DNA of 10,160 nt from Phycisphaerae bacterium. Lineage in GTDB: Bacteria > Planctomycetota > Phycisphaerae > Sedimentisphaerales > Anaerohalosphaeraceae. A program made the translations under genes and the position numbers. Within the stretch, counting starts at the first letter, position 1. Every line of letters starts with the position of its first letter. The notes below the pieces were generated by a model that saw nothing but the letters and a program-made list of their open reading frames with translations, was not told the origin of the DNA and searched no databases. The DNA lies in the NCBI GenBank assembly GCA_021736615.1, contig JAIPFN010000213.1, forward strand, positions 1 to 10,160. The letters run 5' to 3'. Of the stretch, positions 1-10,160 are shown in pieces.

Positions 1-63
1 ATAAACGCCTATAGCAGAGATTACTCGAATTGGACAGCGGCGACGCCGACACCGAAACAATAA
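1..63 (+). CDS. C-terminal end of an unidentified gene (partial, runs off left edge)
   Basis: Frame 1 is open from the first base to a TAA at 61-63 and encodes INAYSRDYSNWTAATPTPKQ. A strong plus-strand terminator follows 13 nt later, which supports this being a real gene end. The Thr/Pro-rich tail loosely resembles the short tails after the dockerin-like region of the secreted proteins further right (SLPQPQTK, SLTAPTEAP), so it may belong to the same secreted-protein class. Twenty residues are too few to assign a family. Confidence 0.4.
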   Translation: MNAYSRDYSNWTAATPTPKQ

Positions 64-75
64 AATACTCTGATG

Positions 76-105
76 ACTCTGACCGGCCTTTCGGTCGGTC
101 AGAGT
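76..105 (+). terminator. Rho-independent terminator of the upstream gene
   Basis: A stem of about 13 bp (left arm 76-88, right arm 93-105) closes on a TTTC loop, with one G-T wobble. It is followed by the T-rich stretch TTGTTATTGTTG. It sits just after the TAA at 61-63 and is oriented to stop plus-strand transcription. Confidence 0.65.
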
Positions 106-271
106 TGTTATTGTTGATAACTGAAGGTCCGCCGTACATTTAAAGTTTGGCAAACCATTAGATATTGAAATTCTCAGCAACATAATGTTTGCATCCTGCC
201 GACATTTGCCCTGTTTCAAGCCAACTTCAATCAGATTCTCAATCCAGAGTTTTAGCCAATTCGATAGACAG

Positions 272-779
272 GCCTGATTTTAAGTCACATTTTGCTGACC
301 GTTATAGCGGTGACATGTGACGTCCCGAGGAAAAAGCGATTGCTTTTCCAACCAATTCAAGGCTTTACACAAAGATGTTATATCGTCTTATAAGCCTTTC
401 TAAGAAACAAGCTATTCAATTACGCCATAATTACACTGGTGATGGCCAAGTTCATATTACCGGTTAACTTGGCAAAAGCAAAGCCCCACCGGCTATTCTT
501 AAACGAACGAAGCGGCGATCAGCGGTGGAACAGGAGATTGGGCATTTAAAAAGTGATAATCGGATGGGACGAAACTTCTCTCAAAGCAAAGAAGGCGACC
601 GGATCAATGTGTTACGGGCTGGAATTGGAGCGAATATATGCAAGTTACCGGCTGCATTTTGGCCTGCAATTTTGGATAGGGCACGAATATACGTATCGAA
701 TTGGCGGATAAGGCTGCATCTGAAAAATCAACATCTTCAACTTGCAGTGTTATCGCTAAAAACTGACTTTTTCAGGGGC
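272..779 (+). mobile_element. Degenerate, internally deleted IS5-family insertion sequence
   Basis: The element is defined by transposase remnants (321-772) and by imperfect candidate terminal inverted repeats. The left end at about 272-294 begins GCCTGATTTTAAGTCA. The reverse complement of the right end at 755-779 begins GCCCCTGAAAAAGTCA. They align with small gaps. Intact members of this family are usually well over 1 kb, so this copy of about 0.5 kb has lost much of its interior. No convincing target-site duplication was found. Between the terminator (105) and this element (106-271) nothing recognisable is seen. Confidence 0.5.
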
Positions 780-848
780 GACATCGTACATCCCGGTTTT
801 ACGTCGGGAATCATTATTCATTTCAAACTGGCAGATCGTTCAGTTTGA
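321..848 (+). pseudogene. IS5-family transposase remnant (deleted, with stop and probable frameshift)
   Basis: One frame carries two recognisable IS5-type blocks. Around 324-416 is EEKAIAFPTNSRLY followed by LSKKQAIQLR, which resembles the N-terminal block after the DTT motif (usual form QEKAIAFPTDSRLY). Around 429-640 is NYTGDGQVHITG, an in-frame TAA at 465-467, then KRRSAVEQEIGHLKSDNRMG and GDRINVLRAGIGANICKL, the conserved C-terminal block with the catalytic Glu region. The central part with the second catalytic Asp is missing between the blocks. A TGA lies at 318-320, and the DTT segment seems to be out of frame around 310-330. The natural C-terminus is probably near LKTDFFRGD (about 780). 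The open frame from the GTG at 525 is only the surviving 3' piece and is not expected to be functional. Confidence 0.75.
824..847 (-). terminator. Post-stop hairpin downstream of the TolC gene
   Basis: On the minus strand, just after the TAA (850-852), CAAACTG and CAGTTTG form a 7-bp stem with a 10-nt loop. There is no good U-run, so it is a weak terminator by classical criteria. The same post-stop sequence recurs after the esterase gene (7811-7855). A second small hairpin (TCCCG/CGGGA, 791-809) lies further downstream. Confidence 0.3.
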
Positions 849-849
849 G

Positions 850-2559
850 TTATTGACTTGTTAATTTCTTGAGCCAGTTCACTATTGTATCTTCGGAGTC
901 TGTTTCTTTGAAGATTGTTTTTTCTGCCGTTTTTTCTGCTACTGATTTTTCCGTCAGGTGTTTTGTATTCCACATCCCGTCTTCTTTAATTTCCATCACT
1001 CCTGCGTCTTTGTAGAAATCGAGTGTTGCAATTGTAAAGGCGACAAGCGCTTCAGCAGCGGCGTTTTTGGCATCGAAGAGATCTTTCTGTGCATCGAGTA
1101 TGTCTCGTGTGTTTGATCTTGCATACTGGAGCAGGAGCGATGTTTTATTGAATCGGTCGGCTGCAAGTTTGAGGCTCTTTAACTGAACATCCCGGACGGT
1201 GGAAGCTTCGGTTAGGTTTCTAAAAGCTGTCCGTACCTGCAGGGCTGTTATATCGCTTGACTCCTGGTAGTTTCGTTTTGCCTGATCCAAAGCGATGAGG
1301 GCTTTTCTATACTGGTTTCTTTCGGCTTTTCTGTCCAGAGCGAGGTCGAGTTCGAGTCCAACGGAGTTATTGGTCGACGATGCGGCGATGGCGGAAGTAG
1401 AGGTTGTCCGTTTTGTTACAGATGATGTCGAGGCGGTAAGGTCAAGTCGGGCCTTGAAGGCTTCGGCGGCAACTTTAATTTTTCTTTCGGCATCAGAGAT
1501 CATGTCAGCTTGGTTTAGCAGATCAAGGCGTCTATTCACTGCCTCAGCGACTGCCTGCTCTTCCGTAAAAGCAGGAGTAGGGAGGTTTTTGGCGGCAATT
1601 ACAGATAGTTTTTCTGTATCGAGAGAAATTTCTGTTGATGGAGGAATAGACAGTATCAGCTTGAATTCGTCTAGTGTCTGATTGCAGAGATTTTGCTGTC
1701 TTATGAAAATATCGCGGGCCTTAAGGATGTCTTGCTGAGTCTGTTCGAGTTCGTGTTTTTCCAGGCGGCCGGCTTTGACCATCTTCTCCATCAGCCCAAA
1801 CGTCTCTTTCAGATCATCAAGGTTTTGTCTGGCATTTTCCAACTTCTCATAGCTTAACAGCGCATTGTAGTATGCGGTTATTACCGAAACAGTAAGCTCT
1901 TTTCTGAACCGTCCAAAAAGCCTCAGCTGATAAAGTGTGTCTCTCTGGGCCTGGGTGAGATTTTCTAGAAGGATTATTCTTTCGCTGTCACGCAGCAGTG
2001 GTTTGGTTATTGCGGCCTGAAAAATTCCCGAAAGCCCGCTTCTCAGGTCACCGGTAAGGATGTCTGCCCATGCAAATGCCACGTCTGTGGTCAGATATCC
2101 TCCGGTTGCAAACAGACGGGTAAGGCCGATATTACCATTTGCGTCAATGGATTCGCCATTTGCATTTTTGGCATAGTCTGCTCCTGATTCACTGAAATAC
2201 CTTGGAGCGAACTGATGGGCCGCCAGAGTAAGATCAAGGGCTTTCAGGTAAATGGCCTCTTTCTCGGCCTGGTATCTTCTATTGTTGACAGTTGCTATAT
2301 AAACGGCGTCTTCGAGAGACATTTTTCCAGATGGTATTACGAGTTTTGATGGAGTGTCGTTTGGAGATTCAAGGGCGTCTTCGATCTTGTAATTAGTCCT
2401 TGGACCGAAATCGTCCTGCCATTTATTATCTATGATGCTGTACACTTCTTTATCCGCATCATCTTTATAATGAGCGGTGTCTTTGCTGCATCCGTTAATG
2501 AAGATTGCAGACGTACATAGCACAACGGCCAGTTTGATTTTCATTGAAAAGTTAAGCAT
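850..2559 (-). CDS. TolC-family outer-membrane efflux lipoprotein
   Basis: This is a 569-residue outer-membrane channel subunit of the TolC/OEP type. It is expected to form a trimeric beta-barrel with a long periplasmic alpha-helical tunnel. An N-terminal lipoprotein signal is visible: Lys7 and Lys9, a hydrophobic stretch 10-21, and the lipobox IFINGC with Cys24. Two OEP repeats follow at about 80-310 and 330-515. They are rich in Ala, Leu and Gln helices, with QAAITKPLLRDSERI (181-195) resembling the usual strand/helix junction and DILDAQKDLFDAKNA (486-500) the typical second-repeat helix. A Ser/Thr-rich stretch at 377-400 may be a surface loop. Met6 is an alternative start, and neither start has a clear Shine-Dalgarno. 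It is the last gene of the operon, about 64 nt after the adaptor gene. That gap holds a weak AAAATG/CATTTT hairpin followed by T's (2575-2594), which could reduce read-through. Confidence 0.88.
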   Translation of the reverse strand: MLNFSMKIKLAVVLCTSAIFINGCSKDTAHYKDDADKEVYSIIDNKWQDDFGPRTNYKIEDALESPNDTPSKLVIPSGKMSLEDAVYIATVNNRRYQAEKEAIYLKALDLTLAAHQFAPRYFSESGADYAKNANGESIDANGNIGLTRLFATGGYLTTDVAFAWADILTGDLRSGLSGIFQAAITKPLLRDSERIILLENLTQAQRDTLYQLRLFGRFRKELTVSVITAYYNALLSYEKLENARQNLDDLKETFGLMEKMVKAGRLEKHELEQTQQDILKARDIFIRQQNLCNQTLDEFKLILSIPPSTEISLDTEKLSVIAAKNLPTPAFTEEQAVAEAVNRRLDLLNQADMISDAERKIKVAAEAFKARLDLTASTSSVTKRTTSTSAIAASSTNNSVGLELDLALDRKAERNQYRKALIALDQAKRNYQESSDITALQVRTAFRNLTEASTVRDVQLKSLKLAADRFNKTSLLLQYARSNTRDILDAQKDLFDAKNAAAEALVAFTIATLDFYKDAGVMEIKEDGMWNTKHLTEKSVAEKTAEKTIFKETDSEDTIVNWLKKLTSQ

Positions 2560-2623
2560 TCATTTCACTTAAAAAAAATGTGATTTTGCATTTTGATAAA
2601 CATTGAGCCTTGATCAGCTACAT

Positions 2624-3790
2624 TCAATCATGCAATCCCCTGATCCCTATTTTTTCTCCCGGCGTAAGTTTCATTCCGGGCGGGATTTTTACTATAAAAG
2701 CTCTTCCCCATTGAGGCCTGTCCGGGTACACCATTAGTCGCGGAGGGACCAGGTCTATTGACGGTCCTATCTGCACTATGTGTGATTCAGCGATCTGCGG
2801 TGTAGATCCGTTCTTTACGAGTTCAACTCTCTGCCCCAGTTTTAAGGAATTATGCGTAGCGTCTGATGCGTAGCCGATTACTTCTGTAGGATCGGTCTGA
2901 GTAATGGTTAAAATCGGCAATGCGGGGATTGCGATTTCTCCGGACTTTGCCGTGATTTGAGTTACTACTCCATCGGCTGGAGATACGATAACAATCGCCT
3001 TACCTTCGACAACTATCTCTTCCATAAGTTGCTGCTGGACGTCTATTGCTTTGCTTATTGCCGCCAGTGCGATGTCAGGCGATGGATTTACCGTCTCAGT
3101 GCTGAAGAATTCGTTCTTTCTTTTGATCGCCTCTTCAAGGTTTTTCCGAGCTTGATCGAGAAACTCCTCATTTTTTTCTATTTTAAGTGAGATCGAGTCA
3201 TGCAGTGCCTGTGCCTTTTGGATGTTATAGTTGGTCGAGATCGCCCCTGAAGCGAGAAGTTCCTTTTCAATGTTGATTTCTGCCAGGTAATCTTTGAGCA
3301 GGATTCGGTCGGGTTCTATAACTGCTATAAGTTCAAGTATGGTAAGCCTTGCGCTTTCAACGTCCGCAGAAAAACGTCTGTGTTCTGTGACCATGTCTAT
3401 GCGGCTATTCTTCGCCTCTGCATCAAGGATTTCACGGTTTGCGTTTAACTCTGCCTGTAAGCGTGCAACTTCGGCTTTTATGGTATTTAGCTTGGCATTC
3501 ATGAGTTCCGAATCAAGTACTGAATCAAGTACAACGAGAGCCTGTCCTTTTTTGACTTCGTCGAAGAGATTTACAGTTAAGCTCTTTATTCGACTGGTTT
3601 CAACTGCTGATACCTGCCAGATTTTTGACTGGGCCATCCCTATGACTTCAAATTTCTGGATGCGAGTATTAAAAAGAATAATCACTACCATAAGAGTGCA
3701 CAGCCAAACAATCACGGGTATAACGTGAAGACGTATTATACCTTTACGATTATTCCTTACCGATACAAATTTTGATTTTTTATTATACAT
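2624..3790 (-). CDS. HlyD-family periplasmic adaptor (membrane fusion protein)
   Basis: This 388-residue adaptor is anchored in the inner membrane and should bridge an inner-membrane partner to the TolC channel encoded next. It has a basic N-terminus (to residue 20) and one membrane helix (about 22-41). The first half of a biotinyl/lipoyl-like domain is at 47-90 (IKSLTVNLFDEVKKGQALVV). A long coiled-coil hairpin spans about 92-260, and the second lipoyl half is at 266-298 (SPADGVVTQITAKSGE). A beta-barrel region covers about 300-388. I chose the ATG at 3788-3790, which overlaps the DUF4956 stop by 8 nt. A TTG codon directly upstream could add one residue. Such adaptors normally work with an ABC, RND or MFS pump, and none is encoded here, so the neighbouring DUF4956 protein is the likely partner (inference). 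Confidence 0.88.
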   Translation of the reverse strand: MYNKKSKFVSVRNNRKGIIRLHVIPVIVWLCTLMVVIILFNTRIQKFEVIGMAQSKIWQVSAVETSRIKSLTVNLFDEVKKGQALVVLDSVLDSELMNAKLNTIKAEVARLQAELNANREILDAEAKNSRIDMVTEHRRFSADVESARLTILELIAVIEPDRILLKDYLAEINIEKELLASGAISTNYNIQKAQALHDSISLKIEKNEEFLDQARKNLEEAIKRKNEFFSTETVNPSPDIALAAISKAIDVQQQLMEEIVVEGKAIVIVSPADGVVTQITAKSGEIAIPALPILTITQTDPTEVIGYASDATHNSLKLGQRVELVKNGSTPQIAESHIVQIGPSIDLVPPRLMVYPDRPQWGRAFIVKIPPGMKLTPGEKIGIRGLHD

Positions 3791-4481
3791 CAAGAAGTTG
3801 CTCCTGCATTGTTAACGAAATGTTTTTAACGCCTTCGATCTCTTCCAGTTCGGCGAGCATCTTTTCGTTTTTTGTCGCGTTTCTTACCATCAACTGAAAT
3901 GCGTATTCGACGTTCGGATCACCAAAATCGCTGCCCTGGGCAGAGACAAGAGTGAAACTGCCGCAGAATCGCTTTAGTATTGTGTGAATCGGGTGATCCG
4001 AGCTTATGTGCTTGCCGATAGAGAACCTTAAAAAGCCGTTGTGCGGGCGATGCGTGCCGAAGTTTGTAAACCGCAGGTAAAGAGCGATTAAGGACAGGGC
4101 AAGTGCCCCTATTATCGCGATGGCGAATCGTTGCGAACCGGCGGCCATGCCGATTACAAGCGAACAGAAGATAAAAGCTATGTCGCGTGTGTCCTTGATC
4201 ATATTTCTGAACCGGATGATCGAAAGTGCTCCCATCAGGCCTACTGCGGTGACGAAACTGTTCTGGATGGTTGACATTACCAAAGCAATGACGACCGTGA
4301 TCATCACCAGAGACTGTACGAACGACCTGGAATATGACAGCCCGCTGTGGGTAAAGTAATAGACCCATGCCATCAACTGCCCGAGCAGGAAAGCGAGCAG
4401 AATCGCAAGTATAACATTCTGTGGAGAGTAACCTGTCTCCAGATACGAATTTCCTTCAAGAATTTGCCAGATACGATCCAT
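3783..4481 (-). CDS. DUF4956 family inner-membrane protein
   Basis: This is a 232-residue membrane protein. Hydrophobic segments lie at about 22-42, 54-72, 75-88, 101-114 and 119-137. The family signature is GLMGALSIIRFRNMIKDTRD at 81-100, followed by IAFIFCSLVIGMAAG. The rest (about 148-232) is a soluble domain ending in ELEEIEGVKNISL, which reminds me of the small ACT-like C-terminal domain of MgtC-type proteins. The biochemical role of DUF4956 is not established. In many bacteria it sits next to VTC-domain polyphosphate polymerase genes, often with CotH, and it does so here. The ATG shares one base with the stop of the VTC gene (TAATG), a layout typical of translational coupling. The charged RFRNMIKDTRD loop between hydrophobic segments could line a path for an anionic substrate, but that is speculation. 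Confidence 0.88.
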   Translation of the reverse strand: MDRIWQILEGNSYLETGYSPQNVILAILLAFLLGQLMAWVYYFTHSGLSYSRSFVQSLVMITVVIALVMSTIQNSFVTAVGLMGALSIIRFRNMIKDTRDIAFIFCSLVIGMAAGSQRFAIAIIGALALSLIALYLRFTNFGTHRPHNGFLRFSIGKHISSDHPIHTILKRFCGSFTLVSAQGSDFGDPNVEYAFQLMVRNATKNEKMLAELEEIEGVKNISLTMQEQLLDV

Positions 4482-5332
4482 TATTGCCTCATCATCATTA
4501 TAGGGGAACTTGCCCCAAGTGAATTTGACTGTTCTATCGTCGATACGTATTTCGAAAAAGCGCTCTGCTTCAAATTAAAGCACTTTACCATATTGCTTAG
4601 CCATGCCGGGAATCGCTGTGTGAATTTTATCTCTAAGATTACAAAGTTAAGCGGCACACGGTGCCAGTTTGGGCCGTACACCTCGACCTCAGGTGTGGTC
4701 ACTGGCTTGTAGTGCAGATTCCGGTCGAATGTTACCCGGACGCGCGTGGTTGTGTCGCCCTCAAAAGCCTGACGGTCGTATCTGATAAGCATAAGCGGTC
4801 TTGCGTTCAGCGAATCTTTGTAGAGAAGGAACTGACGGAGGACTTGCTCGTCTTCCTTATATACACTATCGGGTATTCGGCCTGATAAGATCATTGGTAT
4901 GTCATCTTTCTTTACGCGTGCTCTGCCTTTCAATATGACATTATTTATCCTTCGTTTCACCTCGAAAAAACAAGGGGAACCGGGTTCGTCAGAGTATGTA
5001 CGGACGCGAAGTTTAAACCGGTTACTTCTGCCCTCTTGGGTGTCTTTGCATAGTCTCAAAGTATCGGAGTCGTAATACAGACTCGATATGGGGTAATCCC
5101 CGGAAGGCGTCGAAAGAGCATATTTGTCCCTGTGAAGATAAGGTCTGATAAAAGCTGCGATTGCCCCGGCGTGAGCCTCAGAAATCCGGTATTTCAATTC
5201 GTATCGGCAGGAAAGCATCTTGTCCGAGGATTTTTTCTTCGGAGATTTAGGCAGACCGATTACGCCTTTATCAGTTCGTTGTATATGCGAACGGTCATTT
5301 TCAATTGAAGAATTTTTTAGGTTATCACTCAT
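4481..5332 (-). CDS. VTC-domain polyphosphate polymerase
   Basis: This protein of 283 residues has the triphosphate-tunnel fold of the yeast Vtc4 catalytic domain, which transfers the gamma-phosphate of ATP onto a growing polyphosphate chain. Motifs in order are RYELKY (43-48), SSLYYDS (83-89), KLRVRTY (107-113), FEVKRR (123-128), KGRARV (135-140), RYDRQAF (184-190), RVTFDR (199-204), LEIKF (233-237) and FSKYV (259-263). The Arg/Lys tunnel lining, the metal-binding Glu and the final Ser-Lys are all present, so the enzyme looks intact. There is no SPX domain, unlike the yeast proteins. A polar, Lys/Ser-rich N-terminus (1-42) precedes the core. I chose the ATG at 5330-5332. An in-frame ATG at 5402-5404 would add 24 hydrophobic residues, but that stretch is AT-rich like a leader. 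Neither start has a clear Shine-Dalgarno. It is the first gene of the operon. Confidence 0.88.
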   Translation of the reverse strand: MSDNLKNSSIENDRSHIQRTDKGVIGLPKSPKKKSSDKMLSCRYELKYRISEAHAGAIAAFIRPYLHRDKYALSTPSGDYPISSLYYDSDTLRLCKDTQEGRSNRFKLRVRTYSDEPGSPCFFEVKRRINNVILKGRARVKKDDIPMILSGRIPDSVYKEDEQVLRQFLLYKDSLNARPLMLIRYDRQAFEGDTTTRVRVTFDRNLHYKPVTTPEVEVYGPNWHRVPLNFVILEIKFTQRFPAWLSNMVKCFNLKQSAFSKYVSTIEQSNSLGASSPIMMMRQ

Positions 5333-5450
5333 AATCAAACTTAAGAATTTACAAACACCCCCAAAAAATAACAAACTAATGTTTGCTAAAAATTGGACTA
5401 ACATAAAATGGATATATATACATGATCAATCCATCACATCTAATCAAATT

Positions 5451-5479
5451 ATTATCTCATAAACGAGGCCAAAAGTCAA
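5451..5479 (-). promoter_or_regulatory. Sigma70-type promoter of the VTC-DUF4956-HlyD-TolC operon
   Basis: On the minus strand, TTGACT (5479-5474) and GATAAT (5456-5451) are separated by exactly 17 nt, and each hexamer differs from consensus by one base. The predicted start is near 5444. This leaves a leader of about 112 nt to the ATG at 5332, or about 40 nt to the alternative ATG at 5404. The leader contains a G-rich stretch (minus-strand GGGGGTGTTTG, 5362-5352). Confidence 0.65.
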
Positions 5480-5958
5480 GTAAATAAAGAGGGAAAAGTG
5501 AAAGTAGGAGAGTTTTTTTTTGTGAGATTAGGGGAAATGGGTAGCCTGTTTAAGTTATTAGGGAGCGTTGTTGTCCTTAGCTTTGAGAAAGGGCGAAAAA
5601 ACACTGGCAAAAACTGACATTTTTCGTGGGACTCTGCTGTGATAAAAAAAAGCATTTTCCATGAAACCGAATTCTGGACATTAAAGTACATGCTTGTGTT
5701 ATTCCGTGGCACGATTAAGGATAAAATGTCCACGCTTGTGTTTTCCGCTAAAAATCTCACTCAAAAGTGAAATAAATTCAAAAGCACTGCCGTTTATTAC
5801 TTTAATTGGGCCATTTGGTCAGTTTGAGTAATAAATCGTTCTATAGGGTGTAGAAAAATAGAACTATTTATCGCGTTTTGTTAGTTGGCGTTCTTTTGAT
5901 GCCCATAATATCAGGGTTTTTAGCTTTTGTGGTCTTTTAGTGGGGGGGTGTTTGCTTT
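5480..5958. other. AT-rich non-coding spacer with inverted repeats
   Basis: No convincing gene is seen here. A 94-codon minus-strand open frame (5476-5760) overlaps the operon promoter and has no family resemblance. Visible structure includes GTTCTAT (5838-5844) and ATAGAAC (5858-5864), a 7-bp inverted repeat with a 13-nt loop. There is also a near-direct repeat GCTTGTGTTATTCCG / GCTTGTGTTTTCCG at about 5692-5746. TCAGTTTGAGT occurs at 5819-5829 and recurs at two gene ends elsewhere in the window. Confidence 0.4.
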
Positions 5959-6117
5959 ATGCGGGTATTAGTCGGTAGGATGTCCATTAAGTCGCCTTTC
6001 TTGGGATTTCAAAGTAATCAGGAGTTTGCGGTATTACGGGCAGGCAAAGATTTGTTTATTTTATTTATTGTTGTTTTTTTTGCACAACTAGTGTATAATT
6101 TAACCGGTTTATATTAG
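5959..6117 (+). CDS. Possible small membrane protein, 52 codons
   Basis: The ATG at 5959 opens a 52-codon frame ending in TAG (6115-6117). The first 30 residues are polar or basic (MRVLVGRMSIKSPF...). The C-terminal part has one hydrophobic helix (DLFILFIVVFFAQLVYNL, about 31-48), like a tail-anchored small membrane protein. A G-rich run (5942-5950) lies 8 nt upstream, though it is not a canonical Shine-Dalgarno. I recognise no family. The promoter at 6071-6099 lies inside its 3' part, which argues against it. The hydrophobic stretch could simply reflect the T-rich DNA. Confidence 0.25.
   Translation: MRVLVGRMSIKSPFLGFQSNQEFAVLRAGKDLFILFIVVFFAQLVYNLTGLY
6071..6099 (+). promoter_or_regulatory. 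Sigma70-type promoter upstream of a small ORF and the esterase cluster
   Basis: TTGTTT (6071-6076), a 17-nt spacer and a perfect TATAAT (6094-6099). The predicted start is near 6106, within or beside the 8-bp palindrome AACCGGTT, which could be an operator. It would drive the 34-codon frame at 6139 and possibly the secreted-protein genes from 6380 onward. Confidence 0.5.
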
Positions 6118-6138
6118 TTGTTAGTTTTGGAGTGTTTG

Positions 6139-6243
6139 ATGAATGTTTTTTTGATTTACGATCAGAAAGAATCTTCCTGCGCCATCACTTCCCTTTATAG
6201 CACCTTAAACCAGAAAATTAAATACCAAGATGTAGCTAGCTAA
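6139..6243 (+). CDS. Possible small protein or leader peptide, 34 codons
   Basis: The ATG at 6139 follows a GGAG (6129-6132) with good spacing and lies about 33 nt downstream of the predicted start of the promoter at 6071-6099. The frame encodes 34 residues, beginning MNVFLIYDQKESSC and ending KYQDVAS, with a TAA at 6241-6243. I recognise no family. It has no signal peptide or membrane helix. It could be a leader peptide, a small protein, or the surviving start of a longer lost gene. The promoter and ribosome-binding site make it more credible than a random short frame. Confidence 0.35.
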   Translation: MNVFLIYDQKESSCAITSLYSTLNQKIKYQDVAS

Positions 6244-6287
6244 TTGCTGAACCAATTGATGTTCAGGGTAGTTTTTCAGATGACAGA

Positions 6288-6300
6288 TGATCACTGATCA
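6288..6300. repeat. Paired TGATCA palindromes
   Basis: Two TGATCA palindromes (6288-6293 and 6295-6300) are separated by one C, about 80 nt before the esterase start. They could be a dimeric regulator site. A perfect TTGACA lies at 6327-6332, but no good -10 hexamer follows at proper spacing, so I do not call a promoter there. Confidence 0.25.
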
Positions 6301-6379
6301 ATTTAAACTGCATTTGTTTGTTTTTGTTGACAGATGCCGGCGGTTTTTAGCTAAATTGTTTTTCTTAAGGAGTTTTGCG

Positions 6380-7813
6380 ATGAAGATGAAAATGTCATTA
6401 TTGTTTGCAGTTGTTGCGGTTACGTTTGTGTTTGTCGGTACTGTTTTTTCCGGCGAGTCTTTGAAGGTGTTTATTCTTGCCGGTCAGTCCAATATGCAGG
6501 GCCAGGGTAATATGACTCCGGTTACGACTCAGGGGACACTTGAGTACATTGTCACCAATGACCCGGAAACGTATGGACATATCAAAGACGGCGGAAATTG
6601 GGCCGTACGCGACGATGTCTGGATTTACTATGAGCGTGACGCTTCCACCACTGTCAAAGGCGGACTGACTGCCGGCTGCGGTGCCAGCAGTACAACCATA
6701 GGCCCTGAACTACAGTTCGGTCATGTCATGGGCGATTATTTTGACGGTCAGGTTCTTATCATCAAGACGGCATGGGGCGGAAAGAGCCTGGCGATTGATT
6801 TTCGTTCTCCAAGTTCAGGCGACATCAATGACGAAATCACATACGACCCGCCGAAAACTGCTGAACAGCAGGGGTATTACTATCGGGAAATGTTAAGTAT
6901 TGTCAGCGATGTTCTGGGTAACCTGTCAACGTACTTTCCGGCATACAATGCCGCCGACGGATACGAGATAGTCGGATTCGGATGGCACCAGGGTTGGAAC
7001 GACCGTGTCGATCAAGCTCACAACGACCAATACGAACGGAACATGAAAAACTTTATCAAGGATGTCCGTGCAGATTTGTGCATATCCAATTTACCCTTTG
7101 TAATAGCCACAACGGGAATGACCGGATGGACCGATACGCATCCCCGTGCACTTTCGTTGATGGAAGCGCAGCTGGCAATGGAAGACTTTACTAAATATCC
7201 CGAATTTGAAGGCAATGTCGCTGTAGACGACACCAGGGACTACTGGCGAACTGTAGAGGAGTCACCGGCTAACCAGGGTTATCACTGGAACCGTAATGCA
7301 GAGACCTATTGCCTGATAGGCAACGCATTGGCTTTGGAGATGATCGATATACTTGGCGACCCTAATGCTCCTTCTGTAGATGCAGGGGCCGATATGATCA
7401 CATGGTCCGGCGAACCGGTAGACCTCGATCCAAATGTCGTCGAAAAGCCCGGCTCGACATGGACAAACCTGACATACGAATGGACGGCCGATCCCGATAC
7501 GGGCGTTGTATTTTCAGATGACCAGGCGCCGGCTCCAAGTGTTACAATTACCGCGGCAACTGATAATCCGACAGTTGTAACGCTGACGCTTGCAGTCAAC
7601 GACTCTGGCAGTACCGAACCGCCCGTGGCAGATTTCGTCAAGATCAAATTGTACGATGATTCCTGTAAGGCAGCTCGTCTGGGCCTGTCCCTTGCAGATG
7701 AGAACCTGACAGATATTTCAGGTGACGATTGTGTTACAAACCTAAAAGATTTTGCCGAGTTAGCCTTTACCTGGCTTAATACTACAAGTTTGCCGCAACC
7801 ACAGACTAAATAA
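6380..7813 (+). CDS. Secreted SASA-type carbohydrate acetylesterase with PKD-like and dockerin-like C-terminus
   Basis: This is a 477-residue exported esterase of the SASA (sialate O-acetylesterase/CE6-like, SGNH fold) family, which removes acetyl groups from glycans. The start at 6380 is set by AAGGAG (6367-6372), 7 nt upstream, and by the signal peptide that begins there (MKMKM, then a hydrophobic core to about residue 22). The frame is open further upstream to 6287, but that part is not signal-like. The catalytic domain covers about 27-325: GQSNMQGQG with nucleophile Ser37, GPELQFG (108-114), WHQGWND (202-208), and HWNRNAETY (302-310) with candidate catalytic His302. A PKD/Ig-like domain follows at about 327-423 (VDAG...TWSG...YEWTADP). 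The C-terminus is a degenerate dockerin-like region (425-467, Cys429 and Cys451) with a short SLPQPQTK tail. The first position of the calcium-loop pattern (Asp) is lost here. The natural substrate cannot be told from sequence. Confidence 0.85.
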   Translation: MKMKMSLLFAVVAVTFVFVGTVFSGESLKVFILAGQSNMQGQGNMTPVTTQGTLEYIVTNDPETYGHIKDGGNWAVRDDVWIYYERDASTTVKGGLTAGCGASSTTIGPELQFGHVMGDYFDGQVLIIKTAWGGKSLAIDFRSPSSGDINDEITYDPPKTAEQQGYYYREMLSIVSDVLGNLSTYFPAYNAADGYEIVGFGWHQGWNDRVDQAHNDQYERNMKNFIKDVRADLCISNLPFVIATTGMTGWTDTHPRALSLMEAQLAMEDFTKYPEFEGNVAVDDTRDYWRTVEESPANQGYHWNRNAETYCLIGNALALEMIDILGDPNAPSVDAGADMITWSGEPVDLDPNVVEKPGSTWTNLTYEWTADPDTGVVFSDDQAPAPSVTITAATDNPTVVTLTLAVNDSGSTEPPVADFVKIKLYDDSCKAARLGLSLADENLTDISGDDCVTNLKDFAELAFTWLNTTSLPQPQTK

Positions 7814-7815
7814 CT

Positions 7816-7840
7816 CAAACTGATTGATTTGGTCAGATTG
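7816..7840 (+). terminator. Post-stop hairpin downstream of the esterase gene
   Basis: CAAACTGA (7816-7823) and TCAGATTG (7833-7840) form an 8-bp stem with one mismatch. After AAATTGAATATTA a T-run follows (7854-7860). The distance to the T-run and the weak stem suggest partial termination at most, so the next gene may be co-transcribed. The sequence closely resembles the post-stop hairpin of the TolC gene. Confidence 0.35.
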
Positions 7841-7864
7841 AAATTGAATATTATTTTTTTATAC

Positions 7865-7878
7865 AGGAGTAAGTCATG
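7865..7878 (+). promoter_or_regulatory. Ribosome-binding leader shared with the third secreted gene
   Basis: AGGAG (7865-7869) lies 6 nt before the ATG at 7876. The surrounding AGGAGTAAGTCATGAA is repeated exactly at 9154-9169 before the third gene. It fixes both starts and shows that the two genes share a common 5' origin. Confidence 0.7.
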
Positions 7879-9099
7879 AATACCAGAAAAGGAATTAAAT
7901 CACTATTAATCATTGTTGTTACGGGTATCGCAGTTATGGTTACCTCGGCAAGCGCCGAGATCACCGTCGATGGCAGCGCCACGTGGCAAAGCGGTAACAC
8001 CAACCTTGGCGGCACTTTTGATGCCAGCGATTCGGACAAACTGGTCGTGATTGTGACCGGTGAGCATGGGTTCAACCAGACCGGAAACGGTTTTGCAGGC
8101 GACGTCTTTTATGACGGTGTCCAATTGACTGCAGCGGTGAAACGCCAACCCATTAAAGCGAACGTGGACCCCCTCGTTCTCGTCGATGACACGTACAATG
8201 CCATTTATTATCTGGACAATCCCGGCACCGTCCACGTCGCCGGCGCCATCACGACCTCGGGTTTTCAGAGCCGCGGCAGCGTGGCGGTTGTTGCTCTGTC
8301 TGGTACCGAAGCCGGCGTTGGCAACGTGGTCACCGGCGCTCGTGACACGAACACCGCTGACCTGACAACGGCCGACGGTTCGATCGTCATTGGCTCGTAC
8401 GGCCTGGGCGGCACCGGCAACACCGCACAACTGGCCCCGATCACGACCCCCGACTGGGATGCCGAGCTCGCCCGGCAGGAAAACGGTAGCAACTGGGACG
8501 GCCACGTCGTGGCATACAAGAATTACGTCGCTGCCGGTACTGCGACCTACACCTTCGATGACACCACGTTGCCCGGGGCAGACGGCCGCACCGGTCGGCA
8601 CGTCATCGCAGCAGAATTCGTGAATGCATTTGCAGATCCGAATCTTCCTGATGTCGATCTCGGTGACGACTGGATTACCTGGTCCGGAAGGTCGGTAACA
8701 TTGGCTCCGGAAGTTGTCAATAACGATACCCAGGTTCCGCAAAGAACCTTGAACTATGCCTGGACAGCTGACCCTGCCGACGGTGTTGTTTTTACTCCAG
8801 ACGCTAATGTTGAGGCTCCGGATGTTACGATCACCAAAGCAGCCGGTACCGGCGATGCGACTGTCGTTAAGCTTATGCTTTCGGTTACCATCGATGGCGT
8901 AGAAGGGGTAGTGGAAGAAGACATTAATATCGACGTTTACGATGATTCCTGTGCCGCTGCAGTGGCCATTGGTACGGCGGCCATATTTAACCCGGCCGAC
9001 TTCAATCAGGATTGTATTACAGACATTCAAGATCTTGCTGCAATAGCCGCAGAATGGCTTAATAATTATTCTCTGACAGCACCTACAGAAGCACCTTAA
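7876..9099 (+). CDS. Predicted secreted protein with unnamed beta-rich domain, PKD-like domain and dockerin-like C-terminus
   Basis: This 407-residue exported protein has a classical signal peptide (MNTRKGIKSLLIIV..., AxA site after Ala27). Residues 28-250 form a beta-rich domain (ATWQSGNTNLGGTFDASDSDKLVVIVTGEH..., ending GRTGRHVIAAEFVNA) of a kind common in planctomycete surface proteins, to which I can give no function. Residues 254-353 are a PKD/Ig-like domain (VDLGDDWITWSG...YAWTADPADGVVF). Residues 355-396 are dockerin-like, with Cys359 and Cys380 and one canonical calcium loop DFNQDCITDIQD (375-386) followed by the AEWL helix. A short tail SLTAPTEAP ends the protein. Codon use in the N-domain is strikingly GC-rich. 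One 60-nt row (8221-8280) is about 73% GC, against 48% in a row of the PKD part (8701-8760). The likely role is a cell-surface or matrix protein. Confidence 0.75.
   Translation: MNTRKGIKSLLIIVVTGIAVMVTSASAEITVDGSATWQSGNTNLGGTFDASDSDKLVVIVTGEHGFNQTGNGFAGDVFYDGVQLTAAVKRQPIKANVDPLVLVDDTYNAIYYLDNPGTVHVAGAITTSGFQSRGSVAVVALSGTEAGVGNVVTGARDTNTADLTTADGSIVIGSYGLGGTGNTAQLAPITTPDWDAELARQENGSNWDGHVVAYKNYVAAGTATYTFDDTTLPGADGRTGRHVIAAEFVNAFADPNLPDVDLGDDWITWSGRSVTLAPEVVNNDTQVPQRTLNYAWTADPADGVVFTPDANVEAPDVTITKAAGTGDATVVKLMLSVTIDGVEGVVEEDINIDVYDDSCAAAVAIGTAAIFNPADFNQDCITDIQDLAAIAAEWLNNYSLTAPTEAP
8630..8775 (+). repeat. Copy 1 of a direct repeat encoding the PKD-like domain start
   Basis: The 146 nt aligns without gaps to 10015-10160, with about 23 mismatches counted by hand (roughly 84% identity). 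Both copies begin just before ADPNLPDVD and continue to the window edge in copy 2, so the true repeat is longer. The repeat begins where the two proteins stop being different. Confidence 0.8.
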
Positions 9100-9100
9100 A

Positions 9101-9135
9101 ATAAGCCTTAAGCATTAAGTCTTAGGCTTTAAGCT
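9101..9135 (+). repeat. Five-unit heptanucleotide tandem repeat between secreted genes
   Basis: Consecutive heptamers ATAAGCC, TTAAGCA, TTAAGTC, TTAGGCT and TTAAGCT follow the stop codon of the second secreted gene after one base. Within them AAGCCT (9103-9108) and AGGCTT (9124-9129) can pair as a hairpin extended by AAG/CTT with a one-base bulge. A T-run (9147-9151) lies too far away for a classical terminator. It could act as an RNA processing or attenuation element before the next gene. Confidence 0.5.
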
Positions 9136-9164
9136 GCAAGTAAAAATTTTTATAGGAGTAAGTC

Positions 9165-10160
9165 ATGAAAGTAAGAAGCAGAATTAAAACAGTGTTAACA
9201 ATCGTCGTTGCATCGTTGGCCCTGATTGCCGTATCGGCAAGCGCCGTTGAGGTCATCGGCGAACTTGGTATTTTGGATGTAACCGCCAATGGCGGAATCA
9301 ACCCTAACACAGGCGTCGCCTGGGCAATCGGTGACCAATACCGCCTGGCTTTCCATACGGTTGGAGCTACAGGCAAGATTGACTCAACTTCCAATGACCC
9401 TGCCGTCTACAATGACTACGTAACAGCCGAAGCCCATGCCAACGAGGCCCTGGCCGGATCGATCTGGTTCGCGCTGGTTTGCGTGAATCTGGATGGCACC
9501 GTTACGGAGGCAGAGTCCCCTAAGAGCGATCCCAGGGTTATCTCGGGTACCGACGATCAAGCTGGCGGTTCCGGCCAAGGCGGTGCTGGTGTGCCGGTTT
9601 ACGCGATGGATGGAACGACCTGCATCGCCAGAAACAACGCGGATATCTGGAACTCTTGGAGTAACCCGTTTGAAGATTCTCCGGGTGTCCCTAACGCTTC
9701 CGGTACAGGCAATAACGCGGTACGGCTTACCCCTCCGACCTCGTCGCAAAACGTGCACTACTCTCCCTTCCTCGATCAATTTGGTAATCAGACTGTCAAT
9801 CCGGATGATGTTCATGGCATAGACGTAGCGACAGGATGCAGCAATACCGGAACCCCCATCAATCCCCTCGGCAACACGACCGACAACACGACGATGAACA
9901 GGGGCAACGCAAATGCCAACAACACCGGCCGCGTTTGGAACCGCTATACGAACAATACCACCGACAAGTTATCTTTCTATGCCCTGTCTGAAGTATTGAC
10001 GATTCAGGATGCTTTTGCTGATCCGAATCTTCCTGATGTCGATTCCGGTGATGACTGGATCAGTTGGTCCGGCCAGGCCGTAACATTGGCCCCGGTCGTT
10101 GTCAATAACGATACAGAAGTTCCGCAGAGAACCTTGAGCTATGTTTGGACAGCCGACCCT
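9165..10160 (+). CDS. Predicted secreted protein with YALSEVLTI-type N-domain and PKD-like domain (partial, runs off right edge)
   Basis: The frame from the ATG at 9165 stays open for 332 codons to the window edge. AGGAG (9154-9158) lies 6 nt upstream. A signal peptide is clear (MKVRSRIKTVLTIVVA..., AxA site after Ala27). Residues 28-280 match a domain pattern I know from exported PEP-CTERM-type proteins of cyanobacteria and planctomycetes: YRLAFHTVGATG (59-70), YNDYVTAEAHANEA (82-95), a WFAL strand, VPVYAMDGTTCIARNNADIW (143-162) and the closing FYALSEVLTI (271-280). Its function is unknown. An Asn/Thr-rich low-complexity stretch lies at 237-266. From residue 286 the PKD-like domain starts (DPNLPDVDSGDDWISWSG...YVWTADP), nearly the same as in the preceding gene. 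By analogy, the missing C-terminus should carry the dockerin-like region. Confidence 0.75.
   Translation, partial: MKVRSRIKTVLTIVVASLALIAVSASAVEVIGELGILDVTANGGINPNTGVAWAIGDQYRLAFHTVGATGKIDSTSNDPAVYNDYVTAEAHANEALAGSIWFALVCVNLDGTVTEAESPKSDPRVISGTDDQAGGSGQGGAGVPVYAMDGTTCIARNNADIWNSWSNPFEDSPGVPNASGTGNNAVRLTPPTSSQNVHYSPFLDQFGNQTVNPDDVHGIDVATGCSNTGTPINPLGNTTDNTTMNRGNANANNTGRVWNRYTNNTTDKLSFYALSEVLTIQDAFADPNLPDVDSGDDWISWSGQAVTLAPVVVNNDTEVPQRTLSYVWTADP
10015..10160 (+). repeat. Copy 2 of the PKD-domain direct repeat (continues past the edge)
   Basis: It aligns without gaps to 8630-8775. Many differences change the protein little (for example Asn to Ser and Ala to Val in LNYAWTADP versus LSYVWTADP), which indicates selection on the domain after duplication or exchange. 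Confidence 0.8.

Follow-up and report, generated by a model that had tools for sequence, protein, structure and literature searches.

Can an enzyme that polymerises phosphate feed a conduit through the bacterial envelope in which no classical pump takes part, and what would the exported product be used for? This question is raised by four genes on the minus strand of a 10,160-nucleotide stretch of DNA from a Phycisphaerae bacterium (contig JAIPFN010000213.1; the whole stretch is called the window below). From upstream to downstream, the open reading frames (ORFs) of the window and their Pfam matches give the order VTC, DUF4956, HlyD, OEP/TolC, that is, a putative polyphosphate polymerase, a membrane protein, an HlyD/EmrA-like periplasmic adaptor and an outer-membrane channel protein. 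Here we propose, with a probability of a little under two in five, that the unit is a synthesis-coupled translocase for a phosphate polymer with an optional trans-periplasmic extension, which would serve CotH kinase-fold proteins outside the cytoplasm. VTC and DUF4956 would form the core of this system and CotH proteins its partners or clients, while the extension would consist of HlyD, joined at some loci by OEP.

The arrangement of the four genes, including the short overlaps described by the original prediction, is borne out by the ORFs and by a Pfam match for each of them. The VTC ORF (5404..4481, minus strand as for all four) matches PF09359 with an E-value of 1.4e-39 (136.5 bits, cut-off 23). 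Its likely true start is base 5332, where the clustered database protein begins (Met25), which gives a protein of 283 amino acids. The VTC stop has one nucleotide in common with the start of the DUF4956 gene (4481..3783; PF16316, E 3.5e-14), and the end of the latter overlaps by 8 nucleotides with the ATG of the HlyD gene (3790, with a TTG at 3793, to 2624; PF16576, E 1.2e-9, 38.2 bits, cut-off 30; PF13437, E 1.9e-6). After a gap of 64 nucleotides follows the OEP/TolC gene (2559..850), which matches PF02321 in two stretches (E 6e-18, 65.7 bits, cut-off 22). At the N-terminus of its product a lipobox-like FINGC with its Cys can be read by eye, and the protein is probably an outer-membrane channel lipoprotein. 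The unit had also been called "fused by operon"; the gene linkage holds, but the word fusion is loose for four separate genes. The Pfam scan revealed no pump gene among the seven ORFs of the window and no RND, ABC or MFS family in the unit.

Is this arrangement peculiar to one genome? An alignment of this HlyD run on species genomes gave 19 loci (loci carry L numbers and genomes G numbers below), and in 17 of them VTC, DUF4956 and HlyD follow each other on one strand (12 of 13 loci in Planctomycetota, five of five in Verrucomicrobia). Of the two exceptions, L013 has just HlyD and TolC, and L019 is a contig of 3.8 kb assigned to Nitrosomonadales by binning. In order to avoid seeding on HlyD, a survey seeded on VTC was added. 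Of 119 Planctomycetota, 115 Verrucomicrobiota and 249 Pseudomonadota genomes, 34, 16 and seven, respectively, have PF09359 (in one of the last seven below cut-off). Its surroundings were read at 41 of 42 places in Planctomycetota (the fragment G137:C378 omitted), 18 of 18 in Verrucomicrobiota and eight of nine in Pseudomonadota (the sub-threshold G417 omitted), two of these places through L007 and L014. HlyD adjoins VTC at 10 of the 41, 10 of the 18 and one of the eight places, respectively, and DUF4956 is present at all 21. In total, the same order and orientation of VTC-DUF4956-HlyD is seen at 37 loci, counting the window, which belong to Planctomycetota, Verrucomicrobiota and a single genome of Pseudomonadota, and L120 is a 38th; the possibility that the order occurs in a single genome only thus fails. 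Two copies of the trio occur in one genome in G070 (L051 and L053) and in G044 (L056 and L058), and at L100 (6881-8085, minus strand) HlyD is split over two ORFs, by a frameshift or an assembly error.

Among 61 of the 63 same-strand neighbours of the HlyD loci (25 of 74 families listed, including all with at least two members), no pump recurs apart from ABC families: the only transporter families with two members are ABC_tran and BPD_transp_2, and MacB has one. With VTC, DUF4956 and HlyD conserved as one unit and no pump gene among the seven window ORFs scanned, the obvious partner for the adaptor in the inner membrane is DUF4956. To this extent the proposal that DUF4956 replaces the pump agrees with the data; that it acts as a channel is what we infer. 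A DUF3616 family match was obtained for five of the 61 neighbours.

VTC, DUF4956 and HlyD form an old co-inherited unit. The VTC tree comprises 82 proteins (L001 was too short and omitted), and its 36 HlyD-type rows all group in a single clade, which has 39 members and a support of 99/97. The other three members are L061 (its contig ends 108 bases after DUF4956), L067 and L074. Likewise, all 37 HlyD rows of the DUF4956 tree (69 rows) belong to one clade of 39 (support 94/94). The HlyD label changes four times on the VTC tree compared to a mean of 27.0 in shuffles, and three times on the DUF4956 tree compared to 23.1. Because supported branches force three changes, one gain of HlyD with losses fits; the extension seems to have been gained about once, although a single origin is not proven. 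Pairwise distances of the three proteins correlate with 0.88-0.90 (35 loci). If the three did not work together, it would be difficult to see why they have been inherited together in several phyla.

In the genomes tested, strong matches to this adaptor lie only at such loci. We searched 80 of the 119 Planctomycetota and 80 of the 115 Verrucomicrobiota genomes with a model of it, which itself contains the matches of G007 (Planctomycetota) and G014 (Verrucomicrobiota). In Planctomycetota all eight matches of at least 150 bits lie directly after DUF4956, and the next best reaches 89 bits. In Verrucomicrobiota each of the six matches at E<=1e-15 belongs to a VTC-DUF4956 locus; G187 has an HlyD (L098) that diverges more and misses this threshold. 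Therefore, the suspicion that HlyD and TolC belong to a separate pump in relatives fails for HlyD in these 160 genomes, and the exception, the L013 pair, was met elsewhere.

Does the VTC protein look like a polymerase? The family profile matches the crystal chains of yeast VTC4 with an E-value of 1.9e-8, whereas a single sequence reaches only E 0.063. In addition to R264, R266 and E426 of VTC4, we take K281, K294, Y359, R361, R373 and K455/458 to be further catalytic residues. The positions taken as their equivalents are R133, R135, K150, K159, Y209, R211, R223, E258 and K285. At each of them all 36 HlyD-type VTC rows have the same residue, as do 40-46 of 45-46 VTC rows without HlyD; the first seven were placed by profile alignment, and the last two, which fall outside it, from the order of the residues. 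Joint replacement of R264, R266 and E426 impairs the yeast VTC complex, according to the accessible part of PMC9911596. The window protein carries PF09359 only, and neither an SPX domain nor a Vtc1-type transmembrane domain was found by the Pfam scan. We regard it as a protein with the triphosphate-tunnel fold and a putative polyphosphate polymerase. PPK1 (PF02503) is found in 11 of 21 VTC-containing and in 34 of 59 VTC-free Planctomycetota genomes; therefore VTC is not simply a substitute for this storage enzyme.

The DUF4956 protein has an ACT-like domain at its C-terminus, after four to five membrane helices. In the AlphaFold model, which is of moderate confidence (mean predicted local distance difference test, pLDDT, 74.6; predicted template modelling score, pTM, 0.58), the C-terminal domain follows the membrane helices with the order beta-alpha-beta-beta-alpha-beta. 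Only at R90, F91 and R92 does one residue reach at least 90% in both the rows with HlyD (37) and those without (31), and these residues may form a basic patch on the cytoplasmic face. The yeast VTC complex needs basic residues along its channel (PMC9911596, accessible part). DUF4956 is a candidate inner-membrane translocase. The model of the window HlyD (mean pLDDT 86.4; pTM 0.46, so that the domain arrangement is unsure) has a membrane helix at 13-46 and hairpin helices at 95-181 and 189-231. Together with the fold matches it gives an N-terminal membrane helix and lipoyl halves split by a long alpha-hairpin, the best likenesses in the PDB being MacA and EmrA.

A purpose for the exported product is suggested by a link to CotH proteins, which the original prediction had missed. 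VTC and CotH occur together in 20 of 80 Planctomycetota genomes, VTC alone in one, CotH alone in two and neither in 57 (Fisher p 1.3e-15); the corresponding numbers for 80 Verrucomicrobiota genomes are 10, none, four and 66 (p 6e-10). DUF4956 is found in exactly the 21 VTC-containing genomes of the 80 Planctomycetota (in G097 below the family cut-off). Of 14 named control genomes, the same three have VTC and DUF4956 (Bacteroides ihuae, C. glutamicum and M. acetivorans), while CotH is present in C. glutamicum, M. acetivorans and B. subtilis. Of the 19 genomes that gave the HlyD-seeded loci, 17 have CotH and 18 have VTC above cut-off. CotH is also the usual neighbour of VTC/DUF4956 pairs without HlyD, at a distance of at most 6 kb (18 of 23 pairs in Planctomycetota, six of seven in Verrucomicrobiota, four of four in Pseudomonadota). 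At the HlyD loci it lies within the stretch read in 10 of 37 cases, close and on the same strand at L003, L005, L010, L052, L053, L056, L100 and L112 and divergent at L066 and L091. Compact sets have the order VTC-DUF4956-HlyD-OEP-CotH (L003, L010, L053, L056, L100) or CotH-VTC-DUF4956-HlyD (L052, L112). The genome of L001, nearest to the window by DUF4956 (82% identity), has nine CotH matches.

Where do these CotH proteins act? A strong N-terminal hydrophobic stretch (a run of 14 residues with a mean hydropathy of 1.75 or more, in roughly the first 160 positions) is present in 45 of 49 CotH ORFs of more than 60 bits at the loci read near VTC, but only in three of 83 VTC ORFs. Many of the CotH N-termini resemble signal peptides, lipoboxes or anchors by eye, and three flanking CotH proteins that were scanned have LTD and other extracellular-type domains. 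These features point to secreted or membrane-anchored proteins, which most likely act outside the cytoplasm. Near VTC at L075 (11130-16452) and L082 (6505-11885) there are arrays of four CotH genes, each for 432-457 amino acids and lipoprotein-like by eye.

In the mechanism which we propose as the simplest, similar to that of yeast, the soluble VTC protein would use ATP in the cytoplasm to build a chain of phosphate, which DUF4956 would take over and move through the inner membrane. In the window's clade the EmrA-like HlyD would sit on DUF4956 in the place of a pump and lead across the periplasm to the OEP/TolC channel. The product would serve the secreted or membrane-anchored CotH proteins on the far side of the inner or the outer membrane, where ATP should be scarce, in the simplest case as a phosphoryl donor or as a polymer that CotH proteins attach or organise. 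We consider doubtful the bolder version, in which extracytoplasmic CotH kinases run on polyphosphate made by VTC and exported by DUF4956, and in which the EmrA-like adaptor and TolC of one clade carry the polymer past the outer membrane.

Several observations weigh against the proposed translocase. The link to CotH is weaker in 80 Pseudomonadota genomes (both in four, VTC only in three, CotH only in eight, neither in 65; p 0.008), a case-control set in which all seven VTC-containing genomes were chosen on purpose, and the p-values for co-occurrence ignore kinship. Bacteroides ihuae has VTC and DUF4956 without CotH, Bacillus subtilis has CotH alone, and the 10-kb window contains no CotH gene. 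DUF4956 resembles MgtC, weakly and with matches below cut-offs, and we know of no role of MgtC as a polymer channel. RxxxLxxxxxxS, which we take to be the TolC-docking motif at the tip of the adaptor hairpin, lacks the Arg in the window's clade; the window protein keeps Leu179 and Ser186. The whole motif is present at the tip in some HlyD relatives (e.g. L015, L017, L060, L066, L099, L101). Furthermore, Bacillus CotH binds ATP (accessible part of PMC12189002).

Further points against it concern the outer part of the conduit. HlyD is absent from most VTC-DUF4956 pairs, and a same-strand OEP gene follows HlyD at 16 of the 37 loci plus a weak 17th (L098), so that the full four-gene order is present at 16-17 of them; the conduit is therefore an add-on. 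The link of TolC is looser than that of HlyD and weaker than had been claimed. At L017 and L018 the OEP gene is convergent with HlyD. L013 is an HlyD-TolC pair (9074-12184) with no VTC or DUF4956 beside it and a DUF3616 protein next. Its genome (G013) has a separate, distant VTC-DUF4956-HlyD trio (L120, 7268-9853), and because this trio lacks a neighbouring OEP our guess is that L013 is a second HlyD and the channel gene of the same system. L019 consists of HlyD, OEP and an LTD-like protein; the genome (G019) gave no VTC or CotH matches, and the contig is, as a guess, misbinned. Beside trios without TolC at L006 (11228-12898) and L011 (11338-13077; both on the minus strand) there are antisense secretin genes (PF00263), a possible other outer-membrane exit, and antisense ORFs of similar size with cross-locus BLAST matches, outside the Pfam scan, are found at L009 (3828-5651) and L012 (11346-13223).

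Among the alternatives, the plain polyphosphate exporter of the original prediction survives best. VTC would polymerise, and DUF4956 with HlyD-TolC would release free polyphosphate to the outside, where it would bind metals, contribute to the matrix or store phosphate; CotH would be a mere companion in the same surface programme. The gene order and the conservation of the VTC catalytic positions fit this model equally well, and so does the distribution of PPK1, by which VTC is not simply a substitute for a storage enzyme. The two activities of yeast VTC, making the chain and moving it along a basic path, are coupled, as the accessible part of PMC9911596 has it. However, the model leaves unexplained why 20 of 21 and 10 of 10 VTC-containing genomes have CotH and why compact gene sets exist, and we think it rather unlikely.

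Alternatively, VTC could be no polyphosphate polymerase but another triphosphate-tunnel enzyme. The phosphorylated molecule that it produces or charges would be a different one, such as a co-substrate of CotH, and DUF4956-HlyD-TolC would then move that molecule. The fold family includes enzymes of other activities, the match to VTC4 is distant, and in the literature searched (most subscription papers and all bioRxiv preprints lay outside it) there was no bacterial VTC domain with demonstrated polymerase activity. The conserved VTC4 catalytic positions speak against such an enzyme, and we judge it unlikely.

An MgtC-like system for efflux or sensing of ions or small molecules, with VTC as its regulator, is improbable. 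DUF4956 matches the MgtC/SapB models along its membrane and C-terminal parts, in each case below the curated cut-offs (PF02308, E 6.7e-4, 20.4 bits, cut-off 31.4; NF007431, E 8.6e-7, 28.8 bits, cut-off 214), and the C-terminal domain of MgtC (2lqj) is among many weak Foldseek matches (rank 9, E 4.9e-3). However, VTC keeps its active site, DUF4956 occurs only in VTC-containing genomes among the 80 Planctomycetota searched, and the co-occurrence with CotH would be unexplained. Capture by chance of the HlyD and TolC of an ordinary pump encoded elsewhere is very improbable: TolC proteins are often shared between pumps, OEP adjoins in under half of the HlyD loci and the L013 pair lies apart from VTC, but strong HlyD matches come only after DUF4956 in the 160 genomes, the HlyD loci form one clade spanning phyla, and the same-strand neighbours include just the few ABC_tran, BPD_transp_2 and MacB members given above.

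How does the proposed translocase compare with known systems? Like the yeast VTC complex (Vtc1/Vtc3/Vtc4), it has a polymerase domain of the tunnel fold, whose catalytic residues agree by alignment, and a membrane partner which bears conserved basic residues and might accept the chain. Unlike in yeast, no SPX or Vtc1-type membrane part was found, DUF4956 being present instead, and HlyD/OEP genes and a two-membrane envelope are added. With tripartite efflux systems such as EmrAB-TolC and MacAB-TolC, and with HlyBD-TolC of type I secretion, it shares an adaptor with an inner-membrane anchor and a long hairpin, and in a subset of loci the OEP, but in place of an RND, ABC or MFS pump, none of which was found in the unit, there are the VTC enzyme and DUF4956. 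MgtC/SapB proteins are similar in the membrane part and the C-terminal ACT-like domain of DUF4956, but the matches stay below curated cut-offs and the partners differ.

The CotH-VTC-DUF4956 module, whose core adjacency of VTC and DUF4956 is present in the window, has been met before. Gram-positive pel clusters have accessory genes for CotH, a polyphosphate polymerase and DUF4956, and the order cotH-PPP-DUF4956-DUF4832 groups the same three gene types (accessible part of PMC7112168). The C. perfringens locus NELoc-2 contains VTC and CotH genes together with a membrane protein of 222-226 amino acids labelled tubulin (accessible parts of PMC2879425 and PMC11677781), which we guess to be DUF4956. 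The accessible parts of these three accounts give no role for the trio and do not mention HlyD or TolC. The literature searched, with the scope given above, contained nothing linking polyphosphate to TolC export and nothing on polyphosphate as a phosphate donor of CotH.

Upstream of the VTC gene a promoter-like site (5479..5451, minus strand) reads TTGACT-17-GATAAT, with 10 of 12 consensus matches and an extended TG. The "one promoter" of the original prediction thus exists as a site, but positions 1..6400 hold six such sites, fewer than shuffled sequences (mean 11.0, standard deviation 3.1), and since they are not above the shuffled expectation the promoter is unproven. Just downstream of the TolC gene lies the remnant of an IS5-family transposase (525-848, plus strand; C-terminal 40 positions of NF033578, E 9e-8), and at the left edge a strong terminator-like hairpin of 18 pairs (71-110, plus strand). 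Divergent from the unit, 6287-10160 (plus strand) encodes a run of secreted-looking proteins, one of them sialic-acid-esterase-like (PF03629); two further ones have common sequence near their starts and ends (152 nucleotides, 84%), and their ends are dockerin-like by eye.

The unit bears on two questions, the source of phosphate for secreted bacterial kinases and whether bacterial VTC domains make polyphosphate, and two to five genes suffice to address both directly. If the bolder version holds, the system would be an enzyme-fed trans-envelope conduit without a classical pump, and phosphorylation or polyphosphorylation of proteins would be possible where ATP is absent. If the adaptor docks on DUF4956, the unit would be a tripartite conduit powered by polymer synthesis instead of a pump.

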